Below, one piece after another: positions 2,656 through 38,308 of a stretch of DNA of 38,308 bases. The notes beneath the pieces were generated by a model. The model was not told where the DNA came from and did no database searches. It was given only the letters and a program-made list of their open reading frames with translations. The translations under genes and the position numbers were made by a program. Origin of the DNA: Tabrizicola sp. (GTDB lineage Bacteria; Pseudomonadota; Alphaproteobacteria; Rhodobacterales; Rhodobacteraceae); assembly GCA_025458105.1 (NCBI GenBank), contig JALOTD010000036.1, positions 1 to 38,308 of the forward strand. Direction: 5' to 3'. How positions within the stretch are numbered: position 1 is the stretch's first letter; each line of letters starts with the position of its first letter.

Positions 2656-3450
2656 TCAGAAGAACCAGGTAATCAGCGGCCAGCCGACAAAGCCAAAGGT
2701 AGCCAGGGTTGCAAGATAGGCGGCGGCAGCAAGAAAACCGCGGCGGATGCCCATCGGGCGCTGGAAGCGGCTGATATCACCTCCGCGCAGCAGATACTGG
2801 ACGCCCATCAGCGCAAAGATGGTCAGCGCAATCGACTGGCTGTAGATCGCCAGAAAGACGGCCAGGGCTGACATTGCGAGCGTGATCTGGTGAGCATAGC
2901 CTGGCAGGAATGTCTGGCTGAGAACGCTGATGCAGCGCCCGCCGTCCAGTGGCCAGAACGGCATGAGATTGAAGAAGTTGAGTGCGCCGGTCACAAGGGC
3001 GAAGGTCCAGATGAAATCGGCGACCAGAGACTCCTCGCCCCAGTCCAGGCCAAGAAGTGCGACAGCAAGGACCATGGGGGCGATGCAGATGCCCGGGCCC
3101 ATCAGGGTGATGAAGAAGTCTTTTTCCTGGCTGGCGGGCACCTGGTTCGAGATAGCCACACCCCCGATCAGCGGGATTAGGCGAAAGCGCGCGTCGGAAT
3201 GGCCGCAGACCCGGTATGCCGCGACGTGGCCGAATTCGTGGACCATGACCGACAGGATCAGTGCAAGACCATACATCGGATCAAAGAAATAGACGGCGGC
3301 AGCCACGGCCAGGACGCCCATTAGAAGCGCGCTGGCCTCGAAGCCCGCGAAAGTGACGATATGGCTGCGTCCGGTTAGCCCCCCGCGCAGCGTGTAGAGC
3401 GTGGCGAGGCACAGCCCCAAGGCCGCCAATATCGCAAGGGCGGGGGTCAA
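2656..3450 (-). CDS. M50-family membrane metalloprotease (site-2 protease-like)
   Basis: A 264-residue multi-pass membrane protein with the zinc motif HEFGH at 71-75 and the second-ligand motif NLMPFWPLDGG at 151-161 (Asp159), the hallmarks of M50 intramembrane proteases that cut within or near membrane helices. About six hydrophobic segments are visible. There is no PDZ domain, unlike RseP, so it belongs with the short members whose substrates are mostly unknown. The start is a TTG whose last bases overlap the fabI stop (TTGA), implying translational coupling; no ATG occurs before the catalytic region except one near residue 44. It lies last in a fabB-fabI-M50 run on the minus strand. Confidence 0.8.
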   Translation of the reverse strand: MTPALAILAALGLCLATLYTLRGGLTGRSHIVTFAGFEASALLMGVLAVAAAVYFFDPMYGLALILSVMVHEFGHVAAYRVCGHSDARFRLIPLIGGVAISNQVPASQEKDFFITLMGPGICIAPMVLAVALLGLDWGEESLVADFIWTFALVTGALNFFNLMPFWPLDGGRCISVLSQTFLPGYAHQITLAMSALAVFLAIYSQSIALTIFALMGVQYLLRGGDISRFQRPMGIRRGFLAAAAYLATLATFGFVGWPLITWFF

Positions 3451-19239: not shown

Positions 19240-19250
19240 AGGGCGTCTTG

Positions 19251-19296
19251 CCCCCACAACGGCTTCCTGGCGTGGCGGGTTTCACCAACGGAGCAC
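19251..19296 (+). promoter_or_regulatory. SAM/SAH riboswitch controlling metK translation
   Basis: The core ACAACGGCTTCCTGGCGTG is bracketed by the stem CCAC (19254-19257)/GTGG (19272-19275), and GGAGCA (19290-19295) lies nine bases before the metK ATG. This matches the SAM/SAH riboswitch found upstream of metK in Rhodobacterales: one hairpin whose loop (GGCTTCC) forms a pseudoknot with the GGAGCA ribosome site when SAM or SAH binds, shutting off translation. Both the sequence and the position directly before SAM synthetase agree. Confidence 0.88.
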
Positions 19297-20473: not shown

Positions 20474-20510
20474 GCGCCGTCCTTGGGGCATCGAGCCCCT
20501 CGGACGGCGT
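20474..20510 (+). terminator. Long hairpin after metK
   Basis: GCCGTCC (20476-20482) pairs with GGACGGC (20502-20508) and an inner GGGGC/GCCCC stem closes an ATCGA loop. It lies six bases after the metK stop but has no U-tract, so termination is likely but not certain. Confidence 0.45.
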
Positions 20511-21019
20511 CGCCACTTCGGGCTCCGGTGCCGCTATTCCAGAGAGTGGTCACTTGAGCGGAGAGGCCGGGCAGGACGGCATTGCCCTGGCCACCTTCCC
20601 TGAGCTTTCGGGCGATAGTGGCTTGGCCTCTGTTTTCTGGGAAGGCCCACGCCAGCCGCAGACTTTGCCAGGCGCAACCGCCCGGACGGCAAGTCCGAAC
20701 TTGGGCACGGAGCCTTGTTTTGGCGCTCGTTCAATAGGTGCGAAACCTTTGGCATGCCTATTTCGCAAACCTTTCGACACAGCCTTAAAGGGTGACCCCC
20801 TTATTGGAGAGGGGTGTCACTCTGTCCGCTACCTCAGCATGATATCGCGGGTTGGGTTAGAACGTCTCGCATACGAGAAAGTCGCCCCCGACTCGACCCG
20901 GCCGTGTGGAGGGCGGATTCGGGACCAACGGGCGCTGTCCAGCGGGGGACGTGTCGATCTGGATCAAGCCATGCGGGTGTCCGGTTGTCTGTGCGCTGGG
21001 GCCGGTGTAGGGGCAGGGC
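20511..21019. other. Region without a recognised gene between metK and trmB
   Basis: Open frames exist on both strands, but none shows a known domain or a convincing ribosome site. Local structure is plentiful: AATAGG (20733-20738)/CCTATT (20757-20762) competing with TGCGAAA (20739-20745)/TTTCGCA (20761-20767), GGTGACCCCC (20791-20800) against GGGGTGTCAC (20811-20820), CTCG-CATA-CGAG (about 20868-20879) and GTCG-CCCC-CGAC just after it. This could be a small RNA gene or a long leader of trmB. I see no known RNA family in it. Confidence 0.4.
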
Positions 21020-26516: not shown

Positions 26517-29492
26517 TCAGGCGAGGGTGTCCGACCCGGTCCGGAACACGCGGTAGATCGCCGGGATGACAAGCACGGTCAAGAGATCCACCGTGACCCC
26601 GCCCCCGTGGCGGATGAAGTCCACCAGAAGGATCGAGTTTCTCACGATGATTCCGGCCAGCGCAATGAAGCCGATCATTGACGTGGCCGAAAACGGTGCG
26701 TTGAAAATCCAGTGGCCGAGCATGATCCCCAGGAAGGTCAGCGGGATCGGCGTGAGGATCACCAAGGGCAGCTTGAAAGAGCCGAACTGCGCCACGACCA
26801 GGATGAAGATGCCCAACAGCGCCACCCCGAAGGCCGCCCCCATGTCGCGGAAGGTGACGAAGGTCACTTCCCACTCGCCATCCCAGAGAAGCGTGACCTT
26901 CCCCTCATCCTCGGGCTGGCCATGCAGCGCGATTTCGGGCTTGGTGCCTTCGGGCCAGTCCATCTTTTCGATCTGCTCGGCCACCGCCAGCATCCCGTAG
27001 AGCGGGGCTTCGAAGTCCCCCGCAAGTTCCGCCGTCACCATCTCCGCATCGCGGCCGTTGTGGCGGAAGATCGGGAAGCTTGCGGCCTCCTCCTTCACCC
27101 TCACCACATCGCCCAGCTCCACCACGCCCCGCGCGCCCGGCAGCGCATTGGCGGGAATGGGAGTCGTCAGGAACCGCTCATCCAGCACCCGGTCCGCCTT
27201 GTCGCGCCCCACGACCAGCGGGATCGGCAAGCGCCCCTCGCCCCGGTGCGAGTATCCCACCGTCTGCCCGCCGTTCAGGCGCGCCTGCGTGCCGAAACTG
27301 TCGTCGACGTCCACGATGAATGGCACCGCCTCGAACGCCTGTCGTATGAGCCGCGCCGCCTCGCGCCGCGTCTCGGCATCTGGCCCGTAGACCTCGGCCA
27401 ACAGGGTGGAGATGACCGGGGGGCCGGGCGGGGGTTCGACGACCTTGAGGCTGGTACCTTCGGGGACTTTCAGCGTCGTCAGCCGCTGCCGCACGTCCAG
27501 CGCGATGTCGTGGCTGGCCCGGTCGCGGTCAGCCTTGCCGGTCAGGTTGATCGCCACTTCGCCGAGTTGCGGTTCGGAGCGCAGGTAGTAATGCCGTACC
27601 AAGCCGTTGAAGTTGAAGGGTGCGGGCGTGCCGGCATAGGTCTGGACCGAGGTCACCTCGGGCAGGCCCATGACCACGTCGGCCACGTCGCGCGCCACGC
27701 GATCCGTCGCCTCGACGGATGAGCCTTCGGGCAGGTCGATGACCACCGAAAGCTCGGACTTGTTGTCGAAGGGGAGGAGCTTGACCGTCACGTCGCGCGT
27801 GTAAAGTGCGGCAAGAGAGCCGAAGGACAGGGCGGCGGTGACGAGCAGGAAGGTCAGGCTGCGGGCCTTGGTCTTCAGCACTGGCTTTGCCACCGCAGTA
27901 TAGGCCCGTTCCAGCCAGCCGCCATGATGGCCGCCGTATTCGTCGTCATGCGCGTGCGCGTGTATGACGGCGCGGCCTGCAATCTTGACCATCAGCCAGG
28001 GGGTGATGATGACGGCGACGAAGAAGGAAAAGATCATCGCCGCCGAGGCGTTCGCGGGAATGGGAGACATATAAGGCCCCATCAGCCCGCTTACGAACAG
28101 CATCGGCAGCAGCGCCACCACCACCGTCAGCGTCGCGACGATGGTCGGGTTTCCGACCTCGGCCACTGCCTCGATAGCCGCCTGGATGCGGGGCTTGCGG
28201 CGGTCCATGCCCCAGTGGCGGTCGATGTTCTCGATCACCACGATGGCGTCGTCGACCAAGATGCCGATGGAGAAGATCAGCGCGAAGAGGGAGACCCGGT
28301 TCAGCGTGAAGCCCATGACCCAGGCCGCGAAGAGGGTCAGCAGGATCGTGACCGGGATCACGATGGCAACCACCCCGGCCTCGCGCCAGCCGATGGCGAG
28401 CCAGACCAGCGCGATGATCGACACCGTGGCGAGGCCAAGGTGGAACAAAAGCTCGTTGGCCTTTTCGTTCGCCGTCTCGCCATAGTCGCGGGTGATCGTG
28501 ACCGTCACGCCTTCAGGGATCAGCTTATTCTCCAGCGAATGCACCCGGTGCAGGACCTCTTCGGCCACCACCACTGCGTTGGCCCCCGCCCGCTTGGCAA
28601 TCGCCAGCGTGACCGCAGGGCCCGAGACCCCGTCCTTCGCCAGATGCGAAACGATGGCGTCGTTCGTGTTCTCGACATAGGCCACTGTGGCCACGTCCGA
28701 CACATAGACTGGCCGGCCGTCCCGCGTGGTCAAGAGAAGCTGCGCCACCTCGGCCGGGGCCGTCAGAGTCTCCCCCGCCACCAGGTCCACCATCTGACCC
28801 TGATCGCGCAGTTTCCCAGTGTTCAGCGTGCGGTTCGCCTGTGCCACCTTCCCGGCCAGCTGCTGCAGCGTCACACCATAGAGCGCCAGCCGGTCCGGGT
28901 CGGGCTCGATCCGGATCGCGTCCTGAGCGTCGCCGACGAGGTAGGTGAGGCCCACATCCTCGGTCTTCGCGACCTCAGTCTGCAGGGTCCGCGCAATGCG
29001 GGTCAGGTCGTTCGACGACAAACCGCTCCCCGACAGCGTCAGCGTCAGGATCGCCACATCGTCGATCCCCCGCCCCACGATCAGGGGTTCCGGGATGCCC
29101 ACCGGGATTGCCCCGATGTTCGCGCGCACCTTGTCATGCACCCGCAGGATCGCATCCTCGGACCTTGTGCCGACCTCGAACCGCGCCGTCACCATCGCCG
29201 CGTCGTCCCGCGTCGACGAATAGACATGCTCGACGTCGTTGATCCCCTTGACGATTACCTCCAGGGGTTCCGTCACCAGCTTGACGGCATCCTCGGCCTT
29301 AAGTCCCTGGGCTGCCACATGAATGTCGACGAGGGGCACCGAAATCTGTGGTTCTTCCTCGCGCGGCAAGGACATCAACGCGACCAGCCCTGCCGCCAGC
29401 GCCGCGAGAATGAAAAGAGGGGTTAGGGCCGAATTGATGAAAGCCTTGGTCAGGCCTCCGGCCAGCCCGACGGGATGCTTGCGGTCAGTCAT
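26517..29492 (-). CDS. RND-family efflux permease with a C-terminal internal deletion
   Basis: A 991-residue inner-membrane RND pump: N-terminal helix, two periplasmic porter loops and a membrane domain with the proton-relay pair Asp-Asp near residue 415 (GILVDDAIVVIENIDRH). Near the C-terminus the text runs RNSILLVDFIRHGG straight into GVTVDLLTVLVIPAIYRVF. In complete RND pumps about 50 residues lie between these blocks, covering a cytoplasmic helix, transmembrane helix 11 (with the relay Thr of AcrB) and part of helix 12. The reading frame is kept across the gap (about 26600-26610). As read, the pump should be impaired. ATG at 29492 overlaps the adaptor gene stop by eight bases. Cargo may be sulfur species or metals; this is inferred from neighbours. 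Confidence 0.85.
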   Translation of the reverse strand: MTDRKHPVGLAGGLTKAFINSALTPLFILAALAAGLVALMSLPREEEPQISVPLVDIHVAAQGLKAEDAVKLVTEPLEVIVKGINDVEHVYSSTRDDAAMVTARFEVGTRSEDAILRVHDKVRANIGAIPVGIPEPLIVGRGIDDVAILTLTLSGSGLSSNDLTRIARTLQTEVAKTEDVGLTYLVGDAQDAIRIEPDPDRLALYGVTLQQLAGKVAQANRTLNTGKLRDQGQMVDLVAGETLTAPAEVAQLLLTTRDGRPVYVSDVATVAYVENTNDAIVSHLAKDGVSGPAVTLAIAKRAGANAVVVAEEVLHRVHSLENKLIPEGVTVTITRDYGETANEKANELLFHLGLATVSIIALVWLAIGWREAGVVAIVIPVTILLTLFAAWVMGFTLNRVSLFALIFSIGILVDDAIVVIENIDRHWGMDRRKPRIQAAIEAVAEVGNPTIVATLTVVVALLPMLFVSGLMGPYMSPIPANASAAMIFSFFVAVIITPWLMVKIAGRAVIHAHAHDDEYGGHHGGWLERAYTAVAKPVLKTKARSLTFLLVTAALSFGSLAALYTRDVTVKLLPFDNKSELSVVIDLPEGSSVEATDRVARDVADVVMGLPEVTSVQTYAGTPAPFNFNGLVRHYYLRSEPQLGEVAINLTGKADRDRASHDIALDVRQRLTTLKVPEGTSLKVVEPPPGPPVISTLLAEVYGPDAETRREAARLIRQAFEAVPFIVDVDDSFGTQARLNGGQTVGYSHRGEGRLPIPLVVGRDKADRVLDERFLTTPIPANALPGARGVVELGDVVRVKEEAASFPIFRHNGRDAEMVTAELAGDFEAPLYGMLAVAEQIEKMDWPEGTKPEIALHGQPEDEGKVTLLWDGEWEVTFVTFRDMGAAFGVALLGIFILVVAQFGSFKLPLVILTPIPLTFLGIMLGHWIFNAPFSATSMIGFIALAGIIVRNSILLVDFIRHGGGVTVDLLTVLVIPAIYRVFRTGSDTLA

Positions 29493-30492
29493 GGGCAAGC
29501 TCGGATGCTACTTCAGTGGCGGGCAGGACCAAGTCGCCTGCGACAAGGCCGCTGATGACCTCGACCATGGCGGCACCGTCGATCTGATGAACTGCACCCG
29601 GCACGATACTGCGCAGTGCCACCCCGTTGGATGTCTTTAGGCCGACGAAATCCAAGCCAGAGCGTGTCACTATGCTGGCCTGCGGCACCAACAGGGCCTG
29701 GCGTTCATCCACCGGCAAGCGGACCAGAAGGCGCGCGCCGACAAAGCTGTCGGACAGCCCTGCGACTTCGACGTCTGCCACGACGCGACCGCCCTCGATC
29801 AGAGGGTAGACCCGGGCCAGCGTCCCCGCGCGGTCGCCATCGGCGTCGGACAGCAGGATCGTGTCGCCTGCCTCCAGCGCGCCGGCATGGCGTTCGGGAA
29901 CGGCGATACGCAGGAAGGTGCCACCGCCGCCCACGACCGCGACAACCTCGCCCGGCATAACGACGGCGCCCTTGGTTACGGGCACATCCAGCACGCGGCC
30001 CGCAACCGGGGCCAAAACCACGCCCTCGCGCGCCTGCTGTGTGATGACCTCGGCCTCCGCGTCAAGGGCGGCGATCTGGCCTTTCAACACGTCAACCTGG
30101 GTCTGCAACGCCTCGACCCGCTGAGTGGTGGTTACCCCTTGCGCCAGAAGATCTTCGCCACGTTTCAAGTCGGCCTCGGCATTTGCAAGCTGCGCACTGG
30201 CCGCCTCGCGTCGTGCGGCAATGACCTGCAGCTGGAAGTCCAGCTTGTCATCCGCGATCCACGCCAGTTCCTGACCCGCCGTCACCGCATCGCCTTCGAC
30301 GACCGAAAGCTCGACCAGAGTGCCCCCCAAACGCGCCCGCGCCGGAACGCGATCACGCGCCTCGACAGTGCCGTACACGGCCTTCCATTCGGTCACCGTT
30401 GTGGCAGCGACGGTGTAGGGCTCTGCCGCAAGGGGCGTGAACCCGATAACCGCAAGAGTAGCCAGAACCAGAGAAGGGTGAGGGCGGCGCAT
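29485..30492 (-). CDS. RND efflux periplasmic adaptor (membrane-fusion protein)
   Basis: A 335-residue HlyD/MFP-type adaptor: signal peptide (LVLATLAVIGFTPLAAEP), a lipoyl-like half near GGTLVELSVVEGDAVTAGQ, an alpha-helical hairpin (about 85-155, ARREAASAQLANAEADLKRG) and a second lipoyl half GVVLAPVAGRVLDVPVTKG, then a beta-barrel. It bridges the RND permease to an outer-membrane channel; no channel gene is nearby. ATG at 30492 has AGAAAG eight bases upstream; a GTG at 30501 is possible. First gene of the operon, behind the AT-rich promoter at 30515-30551. Confidence 0.88.
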   Translation of the reverse strand: MRRPHPSLVLATLAVIGFTPLAAEPYTVAATTVTEWKAVYGTVEARDRVPARARLGGTLVELSVVEGDAVTAGQELAWIADDKLDFQLQVIAARREAASAQLANAEADLKRGEDLLAQGVTTTQRVEALQTQVDVLKGQIAALDAEAEVITQQAREGVVLAPVAGRVLDVPVTKGAVVMPGEVVAVVGGGGTFLRIAVPERHAGALEAGDTILLSDADGDRAGTLARVYPLIEGGRVVADVEVAGLSDSFVGARLLVRLPVDERQALLVPQASIVTRSGLDFVGLKTSNGVALRSIVPGAVHQIDGAAMVEVISGLVAGDLVLPATEVASELAHD

Positions 30493-30514
30493 CAGAGTCA
30501 CTTTCTGTTTAAAG

Positions 30515-30551
30515 ATATAAAGCTATTAAGATGTGCATATAAAAAAGTCAA
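30515..30551 (-). promoter_or_regulatory. Promoter of the RND/SQR/SqrR operon with an overlapping AT-rich dyad
   Basis: On the minus strand TTGACT (30546-30551), 17 bases, then TAATAG (30523-30528). An imperfect dyad, ATAT...ATAT with 8 of 13 half-site matches, spans 30515-30540 and covers the -10 region. AT-rich dyads over promoters are known for BigR-type repressors, and a SqrR-like repressor is encoded in this operon. The DNA here is strikingly AT-rich for this genome. Confidence 0.6.
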
Positions 30552-30700
30552 GCCCCTTGGCACACTGCTCTTCCGTCAGGGTTCAAGATTTCGGCAGAGG
30601 TGATCTGAACTGCCCAACTAAGTGGCGCTGTCCGGACGCTGCTTGACAGGTGCCCGCGTGGACCTTGCCGTTCCTCGCCCGCAGATGTTCCCAAAAGGCC

Positions 30701-31285
30701 ATGAGCAAGCGCCTATCGATCATTGTTGTCGAGAAGGATCGTGATCGGGCGAAGATCATTGTCGATGGCCTGCGTGAGGCGGGTGATCTCGACGTATTGG
30801 TCATTGGCGACGAGATCGGCCTGGAGCGCAGGATCGCCGAACGCAATCCGGACATCGTGCTGATCGACGCGGGCAACCCGTCGCGCGACGCAATCGAGGA
30901 GTTGACGCTGGCCAGTGCGCCCTTGCAGCGCCCGGTCGCAATGTTTGTTGACGAAAGCGACGGCGCGCTGACCAAGGCGGCCATCGAGGCCGGTGTTTCG
31001 GCCTATGTCGTCTCGGGACTGTCTGCCAAGCGGATCAAACCGGTGCTGGATGCAGCGATAGCCCGGTTTCACATGATGCAGAAGATGCGCGCCGAACTGG
31101 CCGAAACGCGCCGCGCATTGGAAGAGCGCAAAGTGATCGACCGCGCCAAGGGCATCGTAATGCGGGCCAAGGGGATCTCGGAGGAAGAGGCATATGCCCT
31201 TATGCGCAAGGCGGCGATGGATCAGGGCAAGAAACTGGCGGAGGTGGCGCAGGCTCTTGTCACGGCGGCGGAGTTGCTCAAATGA
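30701..31285 (+). CDS. nasT: ANTAR-domain antitermination regulator NasT
   Basis: NasT is a response-regulator-like protein whose ANTAR domain binds two-hairpin RNA leaders and prevents termination of nitrate-assimilation transcripts. The 194-residue protein has a receiver-like domain (1-120; D56 in DIVLIDAGNP) and a C-terminal ANTAR domain (about 135-190; RKVIDRAKGIVMRAKG and EEEAYALMRKAAM). The start at 30701 gives the normal N-terminus MSKRLSIIVVE; AAAAGG is close upstream. TTGACA at 30643-30648 could be its -35 element. nasS overlaps its stop by four bases (ATGA), matching the NasS-NasT complex. The RNA target is visible 1.3 kb downstream, before nrtA. Confidence 0.93.
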   Translation: MSKRLSIIVVEKDRDRAKIIVDGLREAGDLDVLVIGDEIGLERRIAERNPDIVLIDAGNPSRDAIEELTLASAPLQRPVAMFVDESDGALTKAAIEAGVSAYVVSGLSAKRIKPVLDAAIARFHMMQKMRAELAETRRALEERKVIDRAKGIVMRAKGISEEEAYALMRKAAMDQGKKLAEVAQALVTAAELLK

Positions 31286-32451
31286 GCGTGCCGCTGCGCG
31301 TCGGGTTCCTGCCGCTGGTCGATGCGGCGCCGTTGGTCTTGGCCGAAGCCATGGGGTTTGACCGAGAGGAAGGGCTGGCCCTTGACCTTGTAGGCGCGCC
31401 CAGCTGGTCGGCGCTACGCGATATGCTTGCCCATGGCGAGGTGACGGCGGCCCATATGCTGGCACCGGTCCCCATTGCGCAGGCCCTGGGCCTGGGTGGA
31501 CCGGGCCGGTTCGAGGTGCTGTCAGTCCTGAACCTGAACGGCAATGTCATCGGTGTCTCGACTGCTCTTGCGCAGCGGATGTCCGATCATGACTTTGGTT
31601 TTCACGATGCGCGCGCGGCAGGTTTTGCGCTGGTTCGTGCCGCCGGGCCAGAGTTGCGGATCGGCGTGCCCTTTGCTTTTTCGCTGCATCGCGAACTGGT
31701 GCAATACTGGCTGGAGCGTCTTGGTGTCGACCTGCCGGTGCATCTGAAGATCGTAACTGTGCCGCCGCCGTTGATGCCGGACGCCCTGGCGGCGGACGAA
31801 GTCGATGCATTCTGCGTCGGAGAGCCGCGCGGGTCGGTCGCTGTGGATCGCGGCGCGGGTGTGCTTCTGTTGCCGACCTGCGCAATCTGGGCCTCGGCCC
31901 CGGAAAAGGTGTTGGCCGTTCGCGCAGGCTGGGCCGAGGCCGAACCCGAGCTGGCCGGTCGTCTGATCCGCGCGGTATGGCGTGCGGGACGCTGGCTTGG
32001 GCAGTCAGGGAACCTGTCGGTTGCAAGCGAGATTCTGGCCGCTCAGGGTCGTCTGGCCGTTCCAGCGGAGATCATCGAACGCAGCCTGACCGGTCGCATT
32101 TGCATCTCTCCGGACGGGACGGAACGTCATGTGCCAGGATTTATCCAATTCCATGACGGGGCGGCTGCGTTTCCCTGGCGCAGTCAGGCCGCATGGATCG
32201 GTGTGCGTCTGGCAGAACGTCACGGCCTAGACCCGGCCATGGCAAGCCAACGGGCGGCCAGCGTCTTCCGCAGCGATCTGTACCGTCTGCACCTGACCCC
32301 GGCAGGCGCCGACCTTCCCGCCGCAAGCGCCAAGTTGGAGGGGTCGCTTGCGGTTCCGACTCCGGTCGCCTCGTCACGCGGCAAGCTGATTCTGTCGCCT
32401 GACCGCTTCTACGATGCACAGGTCTTCGACCCGGCGCTGCCCGGGCGATGA
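31282..32451 (+). CDS. nasS: Nitrate/nitrite sensor NasS (NrtA-like, cytoplasmic)
   Basis: NasS holds NasT inactive until nitrate or nitrite binds, then lets it go to act on RNA. The 389-residue protein is a periplasmic-binding-protein fold of the NrtA/CmpA type ([19 protein letters not shown] at the N-terminus, [32 protein letters not shown]) but lacks a signal peptide, which separates the sensor NasS from the transport protein NrtA encoded downstream. ATG at 31282 overlaps the nasT stop. The sequence after the stop forms a possible terminator and then the ANTAR leader of the nrt operon. Confidence 0.92.
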
Positions 32452-32459
32452 ATTTTTGG

Positions 32460-32487
32460 GCGCTGCGCTGCAGCGTGAAGGATTTTT
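32460..32487 (+). terminator. Possible terminator of nasTS
   Basis: GCGCTG (32460-32465) pairs with CAGCGT (32471-32476) over a five-base loop, with TTTTT at 32483-32487. The T-run is separated by six bases, so this is a moderate candidate. The same segment, CGCTGCGCTGC (32461-32471), is also exactly complementary to GCAGCGCAGCG at 32528-32538. Confidence 0.4.
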
Positions 32488-32557
32488 CTGCCACCCGACG
32501 CAATCCATCCAAATCTTGATTGACGCCGCAGCGCAGCGTGGCACGGTTAGACCAAGC

Positions 32558-32622
32558 GCGATGACAACGATGTCTTGCAGCGCAAATCCCAGATATCGGG
32601 AAAGCCGAGCAACGCCGCTTGG
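32558..32622 (+). promoter_or_regulatory. ANTAR-type two-hairpin leader RNA of the nrt operon (NasT target)
   Basis: Two stem-loops with hexaloops of the ANTAR pattern (A at position 1, G at position 4). P1: GCGA, bulged U62, GAC (32558-32565), loop AACGAT (32566-32571), GTCTTGC (32572-32578). P2: CCGAGC (32605-32610), loop AACGCC (32611-32616), GCTTGG (32617-32622), six perfect or wobble pairs. The linker holds TCCC-AGATATC-GGGA. NasT-type proteins bind such paired loops. P2's loop and 3' strand form the 5' arm of the terminator that follows, so P2 and terminator exclude each other. Confidence 0.85.
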
Positions 32623-32661
32623 GTCCATCGTCCTCGAGACGAAGGCTCCGGGCGGCTTTTT
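32614..32661 (+). terminator. Conditional terminator of the nrt leader
   Basis: GCCGCTTGGG (32614-32623) pairs with TCCGGGCGGC (32647-32656) through ten pairs with some G-U, followed by TTTTT (32657-32661). An inner TCGTC/GACGA hairpin tips the stem. Its 5' arm overlaps P2, so NasT bound to P1-P2 should block it and let RNA polymerase continue into nrtA. Confidence 0.82.
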
Positions 32662-32689
32662 CATTTTCTGGCCACGAGGTAGCGAAGCC

Positions 32690-34045
32690 ATGATCCGTCT
32701 TTCTGGACTTCTCCTTTCCACAGCACTCTGCCTTCCCGCTCATGCCGAAACTCCCGGCATCGAAAAGGAAGAACTAACACTTGGGTTCATCAAGCTGACC
32801 GACATGGCGCCCCTGGCCATCGCCAAGGAGAAGGGGTTCTTCGAAGAGGAAGGCCTGTCGGTGACGCTGGTCGCGCAGTCGAACTGGAAGGTGCTGCTCG
32901 ATGCTGTCGTTTCGGGCGAGTTGGACGGCGCGCATATGCTGGCAGGTCAGCCGATTGCGGCATCGATCGGTTACGGCACGCAGGCCGCGCTGGTCACGCC
33001 CTTCTCGATGGACCTGAATGGCAATGCGATCACCGTGTCGAACGCGGTCTGGGAGGAGATGAAGGCCCATGTGCCGATGGCAGACGGCAAGCCCGTGCAT
33101 CCGATCAAGGCCGATGCGCTGAAGCCGGTGATCGAGGCCTATGCGGATGAGGGCACGCCCTTCAATCTGGGCATGGTCTTCCCTGTGTCGACCCACAACT
33201 ACGAACTGCGCTACTGGCTGGCGGCGGGCGGGATCAACCCGGGCCTCTACTCTCCGGACGACGTCTCGGGCCAGATCGGCGGCGATGTGCTGATTTCCGT
33301 GACGCCCCCGCCGCAGATGCCCGCGACGCTCGAGGCGGGGACGATCCTTGGCTACGCCGTGGGCGAGCCCTGGAACCAGGCGGCGGTCGCCAAGGGCATC
33401 GGGGTGCCGGTCATCACGGATTATGACATCTGGAAGAACAACCCTGAAAAAGTGTTCGGCTTGACTGCCGAGTTCGTGGAACAGAACCCGCAGACAACAC
33501 TCGCGCTGACCAAGGCGCTGATCCGGGCGGCGATCTGGTTGGATGAGAATGACAACGCGAACCGGATGGAAGCGGTCGAGATCTTGGCACGGCCCGAATA
33601 TGTGGGCGCTGATGCCGCTGTGATCGCCAACAGCATGACCGGGACCTTCGAGTTCGAAAAGGGTGACAAGAGGCCCGCCCCGGATTTCAACGTCTTTTTC
33701 CGCTACAATGCGACCTTCCCCTACTACTCGGACGCGGTCTGGACCCTGACCCAGATGCGCCGCTGGGGCCAGATCGCTGAAGCCAAGCCCGACACCTGGT
33801 ATGACGAGACCGCGAAGTCGGTCTACAAGCCCGAGATCTACAAACTGGCCGCCGAGGCGCTGATTGCCGAGGGCAAGGCGACTGCGGACATGTTCGACTT
33901 TGACGCGGACGGCTACCGCGAACCGACCGCCGATTTCATCGACGGCGTCACATACGACGGTAAGGCCCCGAACGCCTACATCGACAGCCTTCTGATCGGC
34001 CTCAAGGGCGACCAGATGGTCGTCGGCGGCGAAGTCACGAACTGA
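32690..34045 (+). CDS. nrtA: Nitrate/nitrite ABC transporter substrate-binding protein NrtA
   Basis: A 451-residue periplasmic nitrate-binding protein of the NrtA/CmpA family. The start at 32690 (GAGGT nine bases upstream) gives a signal peptide ending LPAHA, then mature sequence with [44 protein letters not shown] and NGNAITVSN, the anion-binding blocks of the family. An open frame continues 92 codons upstream through the ANTAR leader and should not be taken as coding. NasS is its cytoplasmic relative. First gene of nrtA-nrtB-nrtCD-nirB, under NasT antitermination. Confidence 0.93.
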
Positions 34046-34055
34046 GGGCCGGCGG

Positions 34056-35129
34056 ATGACGATGCTCGACCCCGCCGTGACAACCAAGCCGAAAGCCCCC
34101 CAGGGGCCCCGGCGTCTCTCGGCCTTGATCCAGAAGGCCGATCCCTGGTTCAGCGTGCTCGGCCTTGGTTGGGCAACGCCGCTACTTCGCATCGCTTCGG
34201 GCGAAAGCCCGAAGGGTCAATTCCGTGACCTCTGGCGGCTGGCCATCGTGCCGATGCTGGCGATCCTGGGGTTCCTGGCCATCTGGGCTTGGGCCGCCCC
34301 CAAGGTCGTCACCTCGCTGGGCGCAATCCCAGGCCCTGCACAGGTGTGGGAGCAAGTGGGTGTCCTGCACGCCGACGCGGTGACCGAGCGCGAGAAGGAG
34401 GCCGCGTTCTACGCCAAACAGGCCGAGAAGAACGCGGCCCTGATCGCCGAAGGCAAGGCGGATGAGGTCAAGGATCGGCCCTATACCGGCAAGCCTACCT
34501 ATTACGAACAGATATTCACATCCATCCAGACGGTCTTCTTCGGCTTCCTGCTTGCGACCCTTGTCGCTGTGCCGCTGGGGATACTGTCGGGCATGTCGGC
34601 CACTGCCAATGCGGCCCTCAATCCCCTGGTGCAGATCTTCAAGCCGGTCTCTCCGCTTGCATGGCTGCCGATAGTGACCATGGTTGTCTCGGCGCTTTAT
34701 GCCGGGGACGGGTCCAAAAGCTTTGTCATCTCTGCGGTGACGGTGACGCTGTGTTCGCTCTGGCCGACGCTCATCAATACAGCGCTGGGCGTGGCCTCGA
34801 TCGACAAGGACCTGGTCAACGTCGGACGCGTGCTGAAGCTGACCACCTGGACCAAGATCACCCGGTTGGTCCTGCCCTCGGCCTTGCCCCTGATCTTCAC
34901 CGGCCTCAGGCTGTCCCTGGGTGTCGGTTGGATGGTCCTGATCGCCGCCGAAATGCTGGCGCAGAACCCGGGCCTTGGAAAGTTCGTCTGGGACGAGTTC
35001 CAGAACGGGAGTTCCGACAGCCTGGCCCGGATCATGGTCGCGGTCTTCACCATCGGGATCATCGGCTTCCTTCTGGACCGGGTGATGTTCGCCCTGCAGC
35101 AGGCCTTTACCTTCAGCGGAAAGCGTTGA
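34056..35129 (+). CDS. nrtB: Nitrate/nitrite ABC transporter permease NrtB
   Basis: A 357-residue inner-membrane permease of the BPD_transp_1 (SsuC/NrtB) type. One N-terminal membrane helix (LAIVPMLAILGFLAIWAWA) is followed by a long charged segment (REKEAAFYAKQAEKNAALI, about 110-145), then about five further helices. The cytoplasmic coupling loop is VNVGRVLKLTTWTKITRLVLP, matching the EAA motif. It starts ten bases after the nrtA stop. The charged insertion between helices 1 and 2 is longer than in sulfonate permeases and may contact NrtA. Confidence 0.9.
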   Translation: MTMLDPAVTTKPKAPQGPRRLSALIQKADPWFSVLGLGWATPLLRIASGESPKGQFRDLWRLAIVPMLAILGFLAIWAWAAPKVVTSLGAIPGPAQVWEQVGVLHADAVTEREKEAAFYAKQAEKNAALIAEGKADEVKDRPYTGKPTYYEQIFTSIQTVFFGFLLATLVAVPLGILSGMSATANAALNPLVQIFKPVSPLAWLPIVTMVVSALYAGDGSKSFVISAVTVTLCSLWPTLINTALGVASIDKDLVNVGRVLKLTTWTKITRLVLPSALPLIFTGLRLSLGVGWMVLIAAEMLAQNPGLGKFVWDEFQNGSSDSLARIMVAVFTIGIIGFLLDRVMFALQQAFTFSGKR

Positions 35130-35133
35130 GATC

Positions 35134-36774
35134 ATGGGTATTCTAGAGCTCAAAGGTGTCTCGAAGGGCTATGGCACCCCTGTGCTGAAGCGGTTGGACC
35201 TTGCGGTGGATGAGGGCGAATTCCTGGCCGTCCTTGGGTTTTCCGGCACCGGGAAGACCACCCTCATCAACCTTCTGGCCGGGCTGGAACTGCCCGACCA
35301 GGGCGAGGTCCTGTTCAAGGGCCAGCCTATTACTGGACCGGGGCCGGAGCGGGGGCTGGTGTTCCAGTCCTACGCGCTGATGCCTTGGCTGACGGTCGCG
35401 GGCAACATCGGGCTGGCGGTGGATGCGGTCTCGAAGGGGTCAAAGTCCGAACGCGCCGCGCTGGTCTCAAAGTATATCGCCATGGTTGGCCTCTCCCACG
35501 CCGCCGACCGTCGCCCCGCCGAACTGTCCGGGGGCATGCGGCAGCGGGTCGCCGTAGCACGTGCTCTGGCGATGGAACCGCAGGTCCTCTTGATGGACGA
35601 GCCCCTGTCGGCGCTGGACGCGCTGACGCGGGCCAATGTGGCGAGTGAGATTGAGGCGATCTGGGCAGCCGAAAAGCGAACGGTCGTTCTGATTACCAAC
35701 GATGTCGATGAAGCGCTTGTGTTGGCAGACCGTATCCTCTGCCTGAACCCGGACGGCACGCTGGGGGCGACGTTCAAGGTCGACCTCACCCGCCCCCGCG
35801 ACCGAAGTGCAATGAACGACGATCCAGCCTTCAAGACCCTGCGCGCCGATGTGACCGCCTACTTGATGGACGTGGGCATCAAGGACAAGGTCGAAGGCAC
35901 CCGGCTTCTGCCTGCGGTGACACCTCGTCACGCCTTGCCACGCGCCTATGCGGAAGCCGCGAAAAGTGCGACCGACGACCGCTATCTCCACTTCTCGCAA
36001 CTGCACAAGGTCTATGCGACACCGAAGGGCCCGCTGACCGTGGTCAAGGACTTCAACCTGACGCTCAAGCGCGGCGAGTTCGTCAGCCTTATCGGCCATT
36101 CTGGCTGTGGCAAGTCCACGGTCCTGACCATGGCGGCGGGGCTGAACGAGATCTCGAAAGGCGCGATCAAGTTGGACGGTTTGCACGTCGAGGGCGCCGA
36201 CCCCGAACGCGCAGTGGTCTTCCAGTCGCCGTCGCTGTTCCCCTGGCTGACCGCGCGGGAAAACGTCGCGATCGGGGTGGACCGGGTCTACCCCAAGGCC
36301 ACCCAGGCCGAACGGCAGGATGTGGTGGAATACTACCTCGAACGCGTGGGCCTGGCCGATGCGATGCATAAGCCCGCCGCCGAACTCTCGAACGGGATGA
36401 AGCAACGCGTCGGCATTGCGCGGGCCTTCGCGCTGTCGCCGAAGCTTCTGCTGCTGGATGAACCTTTCGGGATGCTGGACAGCCTGACCCGGTGGGAACT
36501 GCAGGAAGTGCTGATGGAGGTCTGGTCGCGCACGCAGGTGACCGCGATCTGCGTCACCCATGACGTGGACGAAGCAATCCTTCTGGCCGACCGGGTGGTG
36601 ATGATGACAAACGGCCCCGAGGCGACGATTGGCAAGGTGACCGAGGTCAAGCTGCCCCGCCCTCGCACACGGCGCGCGCTTCTGGAACACCCCGACTACT
36701 GGCACTACCGCGCCGAGGTTCTGGATTTCCTGGAGGAATACGAACACGGCGCAAAGAAGAAGGAGGCGGCGTGA
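35134..36774 (+). CDS. Tandem ABC ATPase (NrtC-NrtD fusion) of the nitrate transporter
   Basis: A 546-residue protein with two complete ATP-binding domains. NBD1 (1-255): Walker A GFSGTGKT (35-42), signature LSGGM (131-135), Walker B VLLMDEP (151-157), and an H-loop that reads ITND, with Asn189 in place of His. NBD2 (285-540): Walker A GHSGCGKS (321-328), signature LSNGM (418-422), Walker B LLLLDEP (438-444), H-loop VTHD with His476. In cyanobacteria these are separate NrtC and NrtD. Composite site 1 (Walker A/H-loop of NBD1 with signature of NBD2) is degenerate at both ends; site 2 is canonical. The gene starts four bases after nrtB, and nirB overlaps its stop (TGATG). Confidence 0.92.
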   Translation: MGILELKGVSKGYGTPVLKRLDLAVDEGEFLAVLGFSGTGKTTLINLLAGLELPDQGEVLFKGQPITGPGPERGLVFQSYALMPWLTVAGNIGLAVDAVSKGSKSERAALVSKYIAMVGLSHAADRRPAELSGGMRQRVAVARALAMEPQVLLMDEPLSALDALTRANVASEIEAIWAAEKRTVVLITNDVDEALVLADRILCLNPDGTLGATFKVDLTRPRDRSAMNDDPAFKTLRADVTAYLMDVGIKDKVEGTRLLPAVTPRHALPRAYAEAAKSATDDRYLHFSQLHKVYATPKGPLTVVKDFNLTLKRGEFVSLIGHSGCGKSTVLTMAAGLNEISKGAIKLDGLHVEGADPERAVVFQSPSLFPWLTARENVAIGVDRVYPKATQAERQDVVEYYLERVGLADAMHKPAAELSNGMKQRVGIARAFALSPKLLLLDEPFGMLDSLTRWELQEVLMEVWSRTQVTAICVTHDVDEAILLADRVVMMTNGPEATIGKVTEVKLPRPRTRRALLEHPDYWHYRAEVLDFLEEYEHGAKKKEAA

Positions 36775-38308
36775 TGCGGCTGGTCGTTATCGGGGCCGGC
36801 ATGGCCTCTGGCCGGATGCTGGAGCATCTGTTCGAGGCTGGATTCTCTGGTCAGGTCACCCTCTTCAACGGAGAGCCGCGCGGGAACTATAACCGCTTGA
36901 TGCTCTCGCCGGTCCTGTCGGGTGAGAAGACTTATGAGCAGATCGTCACCCATGACGACGCTTGGTACGCCGCGCATGGGGTGGACTGCCGCTTCGGCGA
37001 GCAGGTGACGAAGATCGACCGCGAGCGGAAGGTTGTGGTCAGCAAGGGGGGCGAGACGCCCTATGACGCCTTGGTCATTGCCACAGGCAGCGCACCATTC
37101 ATCATCCCGGTGGCTGGGAAGGAACTTCAAGGCGTCTGCACCTACCGCGATCTGGAAGACACCAATGCGATGATAGCGGCTTCGAAACCCGGAGCGAAGG
37201 CCGTAGTGATCGGCGGTGGTCTCCTGGGCCTTGAAGCCGCCGCAGGCATGGCCGCGCGGGGGGCCGAAGTGACGGTGATCCACCTGATGGGCCACCTGAT
37301 GGAGCGGCAGCTGGACCCCTCGGCCGGCTACCTTTTGCAAAAGGACCTGGAACGCCGGGGCATCCGCATCCACTGCAAGGGGGCGACCAAGGCCATTCTG
37401 GGCACCGATCGGGTGGAGGCAGTTCTGCTGGAAGACGGCACCGTCTACGACGCCGACCTTGTCTGCATGGCCGTCGGCATCCGGCCTGAGACCCGCATCG
37501 CCACCGATGCACATCTGGAAATCGGGCGCGGGGTGGTTGTGAACGACCAGATGCAGACCAGCGACCCTGCAATCTATGCGCTGGGGGAATGCGTCGAGCA
37601 TCAGAAGCAGCTCTTCGGGCTGGTGGCTCCGCTGTATGACCAGGCCAAGGTGCTGGCCGCAACCTTGATGGGTGCAGAGGCCGCCTTCAAGCCGGTCCAG
37701 ACCGCGACCAAGCTGAAGGTCACCGGCGTCGACCTCTTCAGCGCGGGCGATTTTGCCGATGCGCCGGGGCGTGAGGACATCGTCTTCCGTGATCCGGGCC
37801 GTGGGGTCTACAAGCGGCTGGTGCTGGAGGGTGAACGCCTGATCGGCGCGGTCATGTATGGCGATACCGCCGACGGGGCCTGGTTCTTCGACAAGATCAA
37901 GTCGGGCGAGGATGTCACCGCGATCCGCGACGTCCTCATCTTCGGCCCGGCCTTCGCGGCGGGAGGGACCAGCGCGGACCCTCTGGCAGCCGTTGCAGCC
38001 TTGCCGCCTGAGGCGGAGATCTGTGGCTGCAACGGCGTCTGCAAATCAAAGATCACGGCGGCCGTGCAAGGCGGGGCCGTCACGCTGGACGCAGTGCGCG
38101 GCCAGACCAAGGCCAGCGCCTCCTGCGGGACCTGCACGGGCCTCGTCGAAAAGGTCATGGCGCTGACCTTGGGTGACAGCTTCCAAGCGAACGCGAATCC
38201 ACCGATGTGCAAGTGCACCGACCACACGCATGAGGACGTGCGCCGGATCATCAAGGCGCAGGAGCTGAAGTCGATTCCGGCGGTGATGCAGGAGTTGGGC
38301 TGGAAGAC
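36774..38308 (+). CDS. nirB: Assimilatory nitrite reductase NAD(P)H large subunit NirB, cut by the window end
   Basis: The reading frame is open from ATG 36774 (overlapping the previous stop as TGATG) to the last base, 511 codons. It begins with an FAD domain (MRLVVIGAGMASGRMLEHL), an NAD(P) domain (AVVIGGGLLGLEAAAGMA) and a rubredoxin-reductase-like region. A BFD-like [2Fe-2S] domain follows with C417-x-C419 and C451-x2-C454 (EICGCNGVC, SCGTCTGL), then the start of the second BFD-like segment (MCKCTDHTHEDV). The sirohaem and 4Fe-4S half should lie beyond the window. NirB reduces nitrite to ammonium with NAD(P)H; its place after nrtABCD fits nitrate assimilation. Confidence 0.93.
   Translation, partial: MRLVVIGAGMASGRMLEHLFEAGFSGQVTLFNGEPRGNYNRLMLSPVLSGEKTYEQIVTHDDAWYAAHGVDCRFGEQVTKIDRERKVVVSKGGETPYDALVIATGSAPFIIPVAGKELQGVCTYRDLEDTNAMIAASKPGAKAVVIGGGLLGLEAAAGMAARGAEVTVIHLMGHLMERQLDPSAGYLLQKDLERRGIRIHCKGATKAILGTDRVEAVLLEDGTVYDADLVCMAVGIRPETRIATDAHLEIGRGVVVNDQMQTSDPAIYALGECVEHQKQLFGLVAPLYDQAKVLAATLMGAEAAFKPVQTATKLKVTGVDLFSAGDFADAPGREDIVFRDPGRGVYKRLVLEGERLIGAVMYGDTADGAWFFDKIKSGEDVTAIRDVLIFGPAFAAGGTSADPLAAVAALPPEAEICGCNGVCKSKITAAVQGGAVTLDAVRGQTKASASCGTCTGLVEKVMALTLGDSFQANANPPMCKCTDHTHEDVRRIIKAQELKSIPAVMQELGWK

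Follow-up and report, generated by a model that had tools for sequence, protein, structure and literature searches.

The window analysed here is a stretch of 38,308 nucleotides from Tabrizicola sp. It comprises an entire contig (C85), and the nitrate operon that it carries is visible only up to the contig end. The features that matter for the present analysis are the following.

30701-31285, plus strand: nasT, RNA-binding antiterminator with a C-terminal ANTAR domain (PF03861)
31282-32451, plus strand: nasS, nitrate/nitrite sensor (PF13379 NMT1_2, E 3.3e-57)
32461-32475, no strand assigned: palindrome CGCTGCGCTGCAGCG, PhaR-box-like, two mismatches to TGCNGCRNYGCNGCA
32520-32547, plus strand: putative promoter TTGACG-N16-CACGGT with a poor -10, placed by eye on the basis of the upstream sequences of 95 leaders
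32524-32538, no strand assigned: palindrome CGCCGCAGCGCAGCG, two mismatches to TGCNGCRNYGCNGCA, overlapping the putative promoter
32558-32578, plus strand: P1, ANTAR hairpin 1 (sequence, covariation, covariance models)
32587-32601, plus strand: probable middle hairpin, UCCC-AGAUAUC-GGGA, between P1 and P2 (family evidence; weak in the window alone)
32605-32622, plus strand: P2, ANTAR hairpin 2 (sequence, covariation, covariance models)
32614-32661, plus strand: intrinsic terminator overlapping P2, with a TTTTT end (sequence, fold, family comparison)
32690-34045, plus strand: nrtA, nitrate transporter binding protein, first gene past the leader (PF13379, E 3.7e-95)
34056-35129, plus strand: nrtB-like permease (TIGR01183, 163.7 bits, below the cut-off of 209.05)
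35134-36774, plus strand: nrtCD-like double ATPase (TIGR01184, 579.5 bits, above the cut-off of 291.8)
36771-38306, plus strand: nirB-like nitrite reductase, truncated by the contig end (TIGR02374, 500.7 bits, below the cut-off of 578.35; 512 aa of the protein are present)

The ANTAR domain of NasT covers residues 135-187 (E 4.4e-22, 78.1 bits, cut-off 27.3); its receiver domain is weak (20.7 bits, below the 30.2 cut-off). The name NasS is given on the basis of the position beside nasT and of the published system; 130 of the 295 family genomes have a NasS match at E<=0.001. By analogy, NasS would be the nitrate-binding partner of NasT. The window has the arrangement by which a NasS-NasT system is recognized, an ANTAR-bearing nasT (PF03861) adjacent to a nasS (PF13379). 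From the nasT start to the T-run of the leader the distance is 1.96 kb, in agreement with the compact unit of about 2 kb, with nasT and nasS directly upstream, that a preliminary description had pointed out. The start of nrtA was set by eye at a signal-peptide-like N-terminus. Because its frame runs open upstream as far as an ATG at 32414, gene-calling software might include the leader in nrtA, as had been cautioned. Divergent from nasT, an efflux RND periplasmic adaptor is encoded at 29485-30501 on the minus strand (TIGR01730, 107.1 versus 94.9 bits).

The leader RNA can be read base by base. P1 is made up of the 5' strand GCGA-U-GAC (32558-32565), in which U32562 is bulged, the loop AACGAU (32566-32571) and the 3' strand GUCUUGC (32572-32578). 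P2 consists of CCGAGC (32605-32610), the loop AACGCC (32611-32616) and GCUUGG (32617-32622), without a bulge. The terminator arms GCCGCUUGGGUCC (32614-32626) and GGCUCCGGGCGGC (32644-32656) pair at 12 of 13 positions, enclose an inner hairpin UCGUC-CUCGA-GACGA (32628-32642) and are followed by TTTTT (32657-32661). The 5' arm takes in the last three bases of the P2 loop and the P2 3' strand. The preliminary description of the hairpins and the terminator thus holds: two hexaloops fitting the A1/G4 rule, a second hairpin that shares its loop and 3' strand with a terminator ending in TTTTT, and a bulged U in the stem of P1 only. It had missed the middle hairpin and the promoter-side palindromes.

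Folded alone, the terminator reaches -28.3 kcal/mol and P2 -9.0 kcal/mol, and OFF is therefore predicted to be the default state in the window. For 32550-32675, one of 200 dinucleotide shuffles folds equally well (z -2.72); for the longer stretch 32440-32700, 21 of 200 do (z -1.32). The unconstrained fold gives a different P1, in which loop A1 pairs with U6 and GCGC with a GCGC outside. General-purpose searches do not pick up the leader: an Rfam scan of the whole window at gathering scores has no match in it and no ANTAR match, a permissive Rfam scan of 32300-32900 gives four chance-level matches, none of them ANTAR, and a simple terminator scan of 30400-32900 lists one site, the leader terminator not being among those listed. 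Elsewhere in the window, the Rfam scan finds a SAM/SAH riboswitch aptamer (19248-19295, 56.8 bits versus a cut-off of 40), a tRNA gene (1419-1489) and a weak, partial tRNA match (1574-1618, 31.4 versus 29 bits).

Leaders of related genomes were collected from nine named loci, the nearest of them from Tabrizicola and Rhodobacter, and 89 further loci, which together with the window give 99 sources; L010 was dropped, being the window itself. A first alignment (MAFFT) comprised 93 leaders including the window, six loci (L038, L045, L049, L062, L065 and L087) having been excluded beforehand because the leader or the nasS end was not recognized. P1 was placed without a loop pattern, P2 by a pattern permitting only A or G at loop positions 1 and 4, with hand correction for L055 and L064, so that the invariance of the P2 loop is partly by construction. 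Seven of the eight P1 pairs vary on both sides and the eighth is invariant; for P2, two of five vary on both sides and two are invariant. The whole structure scores 0.417 for covariation; displacing the 3' partners lowers this to 0.065-0.124. A second alignment (A2) of 95 leaders was fitted to the covariance model R1, for which 92 of the 95 had been training sequences. Here, A1 is present in the P1 loop of 91 and G4 of all 95; the pattern-anchored P2 loop has A1 in 93 and G4 in 95. The loop is closed by a C-G pair in 94 (P1) and 95 (P2) of the 95 leaders. A terminator of at least seven pairs starting inside the P2 loop exists in 93 of the 95; a P2 overlapping a mutually exclusive terminator, one feature of an ANTAR-target RNA, is thus found in the window and in these 93 leaders. 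Several pair types occur at most terminator positions; the third loop base, for instance, forms A-U in 50 leaders and G-C in 20. Covariation in the P2 and terminator stems, proposed earlier as a check, is thus present among relatives, with pairing kept (93 to 95 leaders).

Model R1, built from the 93-leader alignment, matches 95 of the 99 sources; these comprise 92 of the 93 leaders used for training plus the unseen L045, L049 and L062. No R1 match was obtained in L038, L065, L077 and L087. L077 belongs to a genome of the same genus (G191) and is unmatched by a second model, R2, as well, although hairpins resembling P1 and P2 can be made out in it by eye. The window leader scores 36.8 bits with R1, lower than most (the list runs from 74.7 to 25.0). 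R2 was built from 55 leaders, with the window, L001-L003, L009, L011 and others held out. It detects the unseen window leader at 31.9 bits (E 4.1e-6), and this is the top of three matches in its own genome assembly (G000, rated 90% complete). At E<=0.01, R2 matches 101 of 295 family genomes. Outside the family there are two matches (G400, G497) in a class-wide sample of 230 genomes. The one in G497, on contig 4, is antisense to a long frame and was rejected, and a family match in G124 (E 0.005) lies inside open frames and is taken as chance. Further targets in the own genome were likewise rejected: an R1 match of 23.1 bits falls within a MutL-like reading frame and one of 19.3 bits is antisense to phaC. 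The runner-up matches of R2 are at these same two places, and three more R1 matches score 13.0-15.1 bits. Two R2 matches within the window, 20490-20603 (15.7 bits) and 229-315 (14.2 bits), are regarded as chance.

Nine of the 295 family genomes have two R2 matches each, and in all nine the second leader (L202-L210) precedes a siroheme-synthesis gene. The gene is CysG above the curated cut-off in eight cases; in G088 (L203) the leader stands before a uroporphyrinogen-III C-methyltransferase gene. Eight of the second leaders are on a different contig from the nas leader or more than 200 kb away from it, the exception being G192, where the siroheme-synthesis gene adjoins nasS. In G161, an R2 match off the nasS contig (L211, minus strand, leader 3240-3320) precedes a gene for a NirB-like flavoprotein (386.6 bits, below the cut-off of 578.35) and a cytochrome-like frame. 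The CysG N-terminal domain was not found on any contig of the own assembly (90% complete), and the siroheme targets therefore have no direct bearing on the window.

On the promoter side, a sigma-70 scan found no promoter, and no sigma-54 spacing was seen by eye. The palindrome TGCNGCRNYGCNGCA is found upstream of P1 in many leaders. Its pattern was written after inspection of these same leaders, and its counts are descriptive and no test: with at most one mismatch it occurs in 56 of 95 leaders, versus 0.45 in shuffles (post-hoc pattern), and there are 64 sites in the 13,490 nt upstream of P1 versus 21 in 292,996 nt elsewhere in the same loci (post-hoc). At the two-mismatch level of both window copies, about 20 chance matches are expected in the window. 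The own genome has 13 exact sites, versus four for the reversed pattern. Four of the 13 precede genes, as judged from the frames: a crotonyl-CoA carboxylase/reductase gene (ccr, above cut-off), a CitE-like lyase gene (below cut-off), a MaoC-type hydratase gene, and a gene for a small protein between phaC and a PhaR-type gene (PF07879); the other nine are inside or beside frames. The small protein, which has no match in NCBIfam or Pfam, may be a phasin, judging by its position. A review describes TGC-rich repeats as the DNA bound by PhaR in Paracoccus and Rhodobacter (PMC10888616). The nas palindrome resembles such boxes in being a TGC repeat that is also found near the phaC-phaR genes of the own genome; it differs from them in that the window nas copies are candidate sites with two mismatches each. 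In the own genome the palindrome also stands before ccr and before the small-protein gene that lies between phaC and the PhaR-type gene, which suggests PhaR as a candidate regulator and the palindromes at nas promoters as candidate PhaR sites. Searches of open-licence papers for PhaR together with nitrate turned up no link between the two among the papers listed. As to NtrC, one NtrC-like site with one mismatch lies about 170 nt upstream of nasT (30521-30537, minus strand); the window holds three one-mismatch matches versus 3.94 expected, which is no evidence for an NtrC-type site there.

The analysis shows the genes, the RNA structures and how these are conserved, and that P2 and the terminator overlap. 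ANTAR-type antitermination is the best reading because of the NasT ANTAR domain, the A1/G4 loops, the mutual exclusion of P2 and terminator, and the covariation; the leader is very probably a NasT-dependent transcription antitermination switch, as had been proposed from the window sequence. Transcription of the nitrate operon presumably begins shortly upstream of P1. By analogy with Paracoccus and with work on EutV and NasR, NasT would be held by NasS when nitrate is absent, the nascent RNA would form the terminator, and RNA polymerase would stop before nrtA. With nitrate present, NasS would free NasT, and a NasT dimer could bind the P1 and P2 loops; P2 would then stay folded, the terminator be blocked and nrtABCD-nirB be made. 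The middle hairpin would fold the long linker and most likely draw P1 and P2 closer together for a single dimer. Several points go against this NasT-dependent reading. Four of the 99 sources, one of them from the same genus, have no R1 match; the P2 loops were anchored by a pattern and most A2 members had trained the model to which they were fitted; the -10 of the window is poor; and in Paracoccus a 3-bp mutation of the second hairpin (HII) is nearly without effect on nitrate-grown expression, so that a strict need for P2 fits poorly (PMC5424462).

The linker allows a simpler view, in which the leader has just the two ANTAR hairpins and TCCC...GGGA is a sequence motif, perhaps for a protein or a pause site, in a tolerant linker. 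Measured from stem to stem, the linker of the window has 26 nt; across the family its length runs from 20 to 47 nt, with a median of 31. The two loops are a median of 49 nt apart (36-63). Outside the middle hairpin, 11 nt are unpaired in the window and a median of 15 in the family. A linker stem of at least four pairs can be drawn in 91 of 95 leaders, commonly as UCCC-loop-GGGA. Several results agree with a mere motif. Its two inner C-G pairs hardly vary; in the MAFFT alignment the helix taken alone has 67.9% of cells paired versus 64.8 in shuffles, and sliding its 3' side by -1 is better (71.6%, covariation 0.152 versus 0.138 in place); shuffling of single linkers in 93 leaders gives a median p of 0.285, with 15 of 93 at p<=0.05 and the window at 0.075, a test that is mostly non-significant because CCC and GGG survive shuffling. 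Against a motif, the linker halves of a leader pair better with each other than with halves swapped between genomes (457 pairs versus 398.6 +- 7.4, z 7.9). The controls give z 2.1 and 2.7 with one half reversed (4.4-4.5 by weight), so that part of the signal persists, and z 0.1 with the 3' half complemented, -0.8 for the P1 flank against the linker and 2.8 for the outer linker sides. In the 55-row alignment, 78.5% of the middle-hairpin cells are paired and two of five pairs change on both sides, the outer and the inner one each in 11 rows. Stem variants such as TCCGCG-TGCGGA, CGTCCA-TGGACG and CCGCGC-GCGTGG keep the pairing, and most of the second leaders upstream of siroheme genes retain a hairpin with other letters, L210 poorly. 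The plain two-hairpin leader is therefore held to be rather unlikely, and the middle hairpin is probably real in the family leaders; spacing is the simplest idea for what it may do.

It could further be imagined that the hairpins do nothing more than end the nasTS transcript, that regulation of the nitrate operon takes place at its promoter, and that the leader is defunct in this genome. The PhaR-box-like palindromes at the promoter and the low R1 score of the window leader would suit this, but P1 and fixed loop bases would be dispensable for a bare terminator, and both are conserved in the family and intact in the window, which makes it very improbable. As for chance folding in GC-rich DNA between genes, the 21 of 200 shuffles of the longer stretch could be quoted in its favour, but it is refuted by the detection with the held-out model and by the family-wide covariation, and its likelihood is negligible. 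The probable NasT-dependent switch is a clean new example of the known NasS-NasT/ANTAR system, and mostly an expected one. A broader scheme is put forward tentatively and is possible rather than likely: a three-hairpin ANTAR switch, with the middle hairpin serving NasT reach or contact, joined to siroheme control in several genera and to nas initiation set by PhaR. If true, siroheme, the cofactor of nitrite reductase, would be made on the same nitrate signal, and PhaR, a polyhydroxybutyrate sensor, would match nitrate assimilation to stored carbon. A third hairpin in NasT leaders, an unlinked cysG under NasT control and a PhaR-controlled nas operon were not found among the open-licence papers searched, as far as their accessible parts go.

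Among known systems, the closest is nasTS-nasABGHC of Paracoccus denitrificans, here likened by published description. It has the order nasT-nasS-leader-operon (PMC5424462, PMC3795266), so that the contiguous nasT-nasS-leader unit of the window, although present as claimed, is less surprising than it had been rated. NasT of this organism binds the nasA leader RNA, and nitrate releases NasT from NasS (PMC3795266). Two hairpins, 46 bp apart, likewise stand before the first structural gene, and Paracoccus fails to grow on nitrate when the first of them, HI, which lies 46 nt upstream of HII, is mutated (PMC5424462). Unlike the window, where nrtABC come first, the Paracoccus operon starts with nasA, and the accessible descriptions speak of no more than two hairpins. 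With the Bradyrhizobium NasT regulon (nosR, nirA and coxS leaders) the family would share antitermination beyond one operon; the second candidate target among the relatives is siroheme synthesis, which is not listed for the regulon in the accessible part of the source (PMC6759348). Other alphaproteobacterial families have clear ANTAR pairs 18-27 nt from loop to loop in nine loci (L118, L122, L125, L147, L148, L150, L163, L179, L180), and long, hairpin-bearing gaps in L111 (51) and L139 (41). Many of their loci gave no clear pair, and none was assigned in the long L117, L120, L121, L140 and L142. The RNAs of EutV (Enterococcus eut) and NasR (Klebsiella nasF) have the same two small hairpins with A1/G4 hexaloops and an overlap of P2 with the terminator, according to what is accessible of the reports (PMC3369931, PMC7496416). 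EutV linkers, however, measure 5-12 nt, and one of 14 nt impaired induction, as the accessible part of that report has it (PMC3369931); the 26 nt of the window, with a probable hairpin inside, are outside this range, which is a length rule for EutV and no stated definition of the class. The long hairpin-bearing linker form is rated as a variant of the ANTAR leader, and it would show how an ANTAR dimer manages a linker far beyond working EutV linkers.
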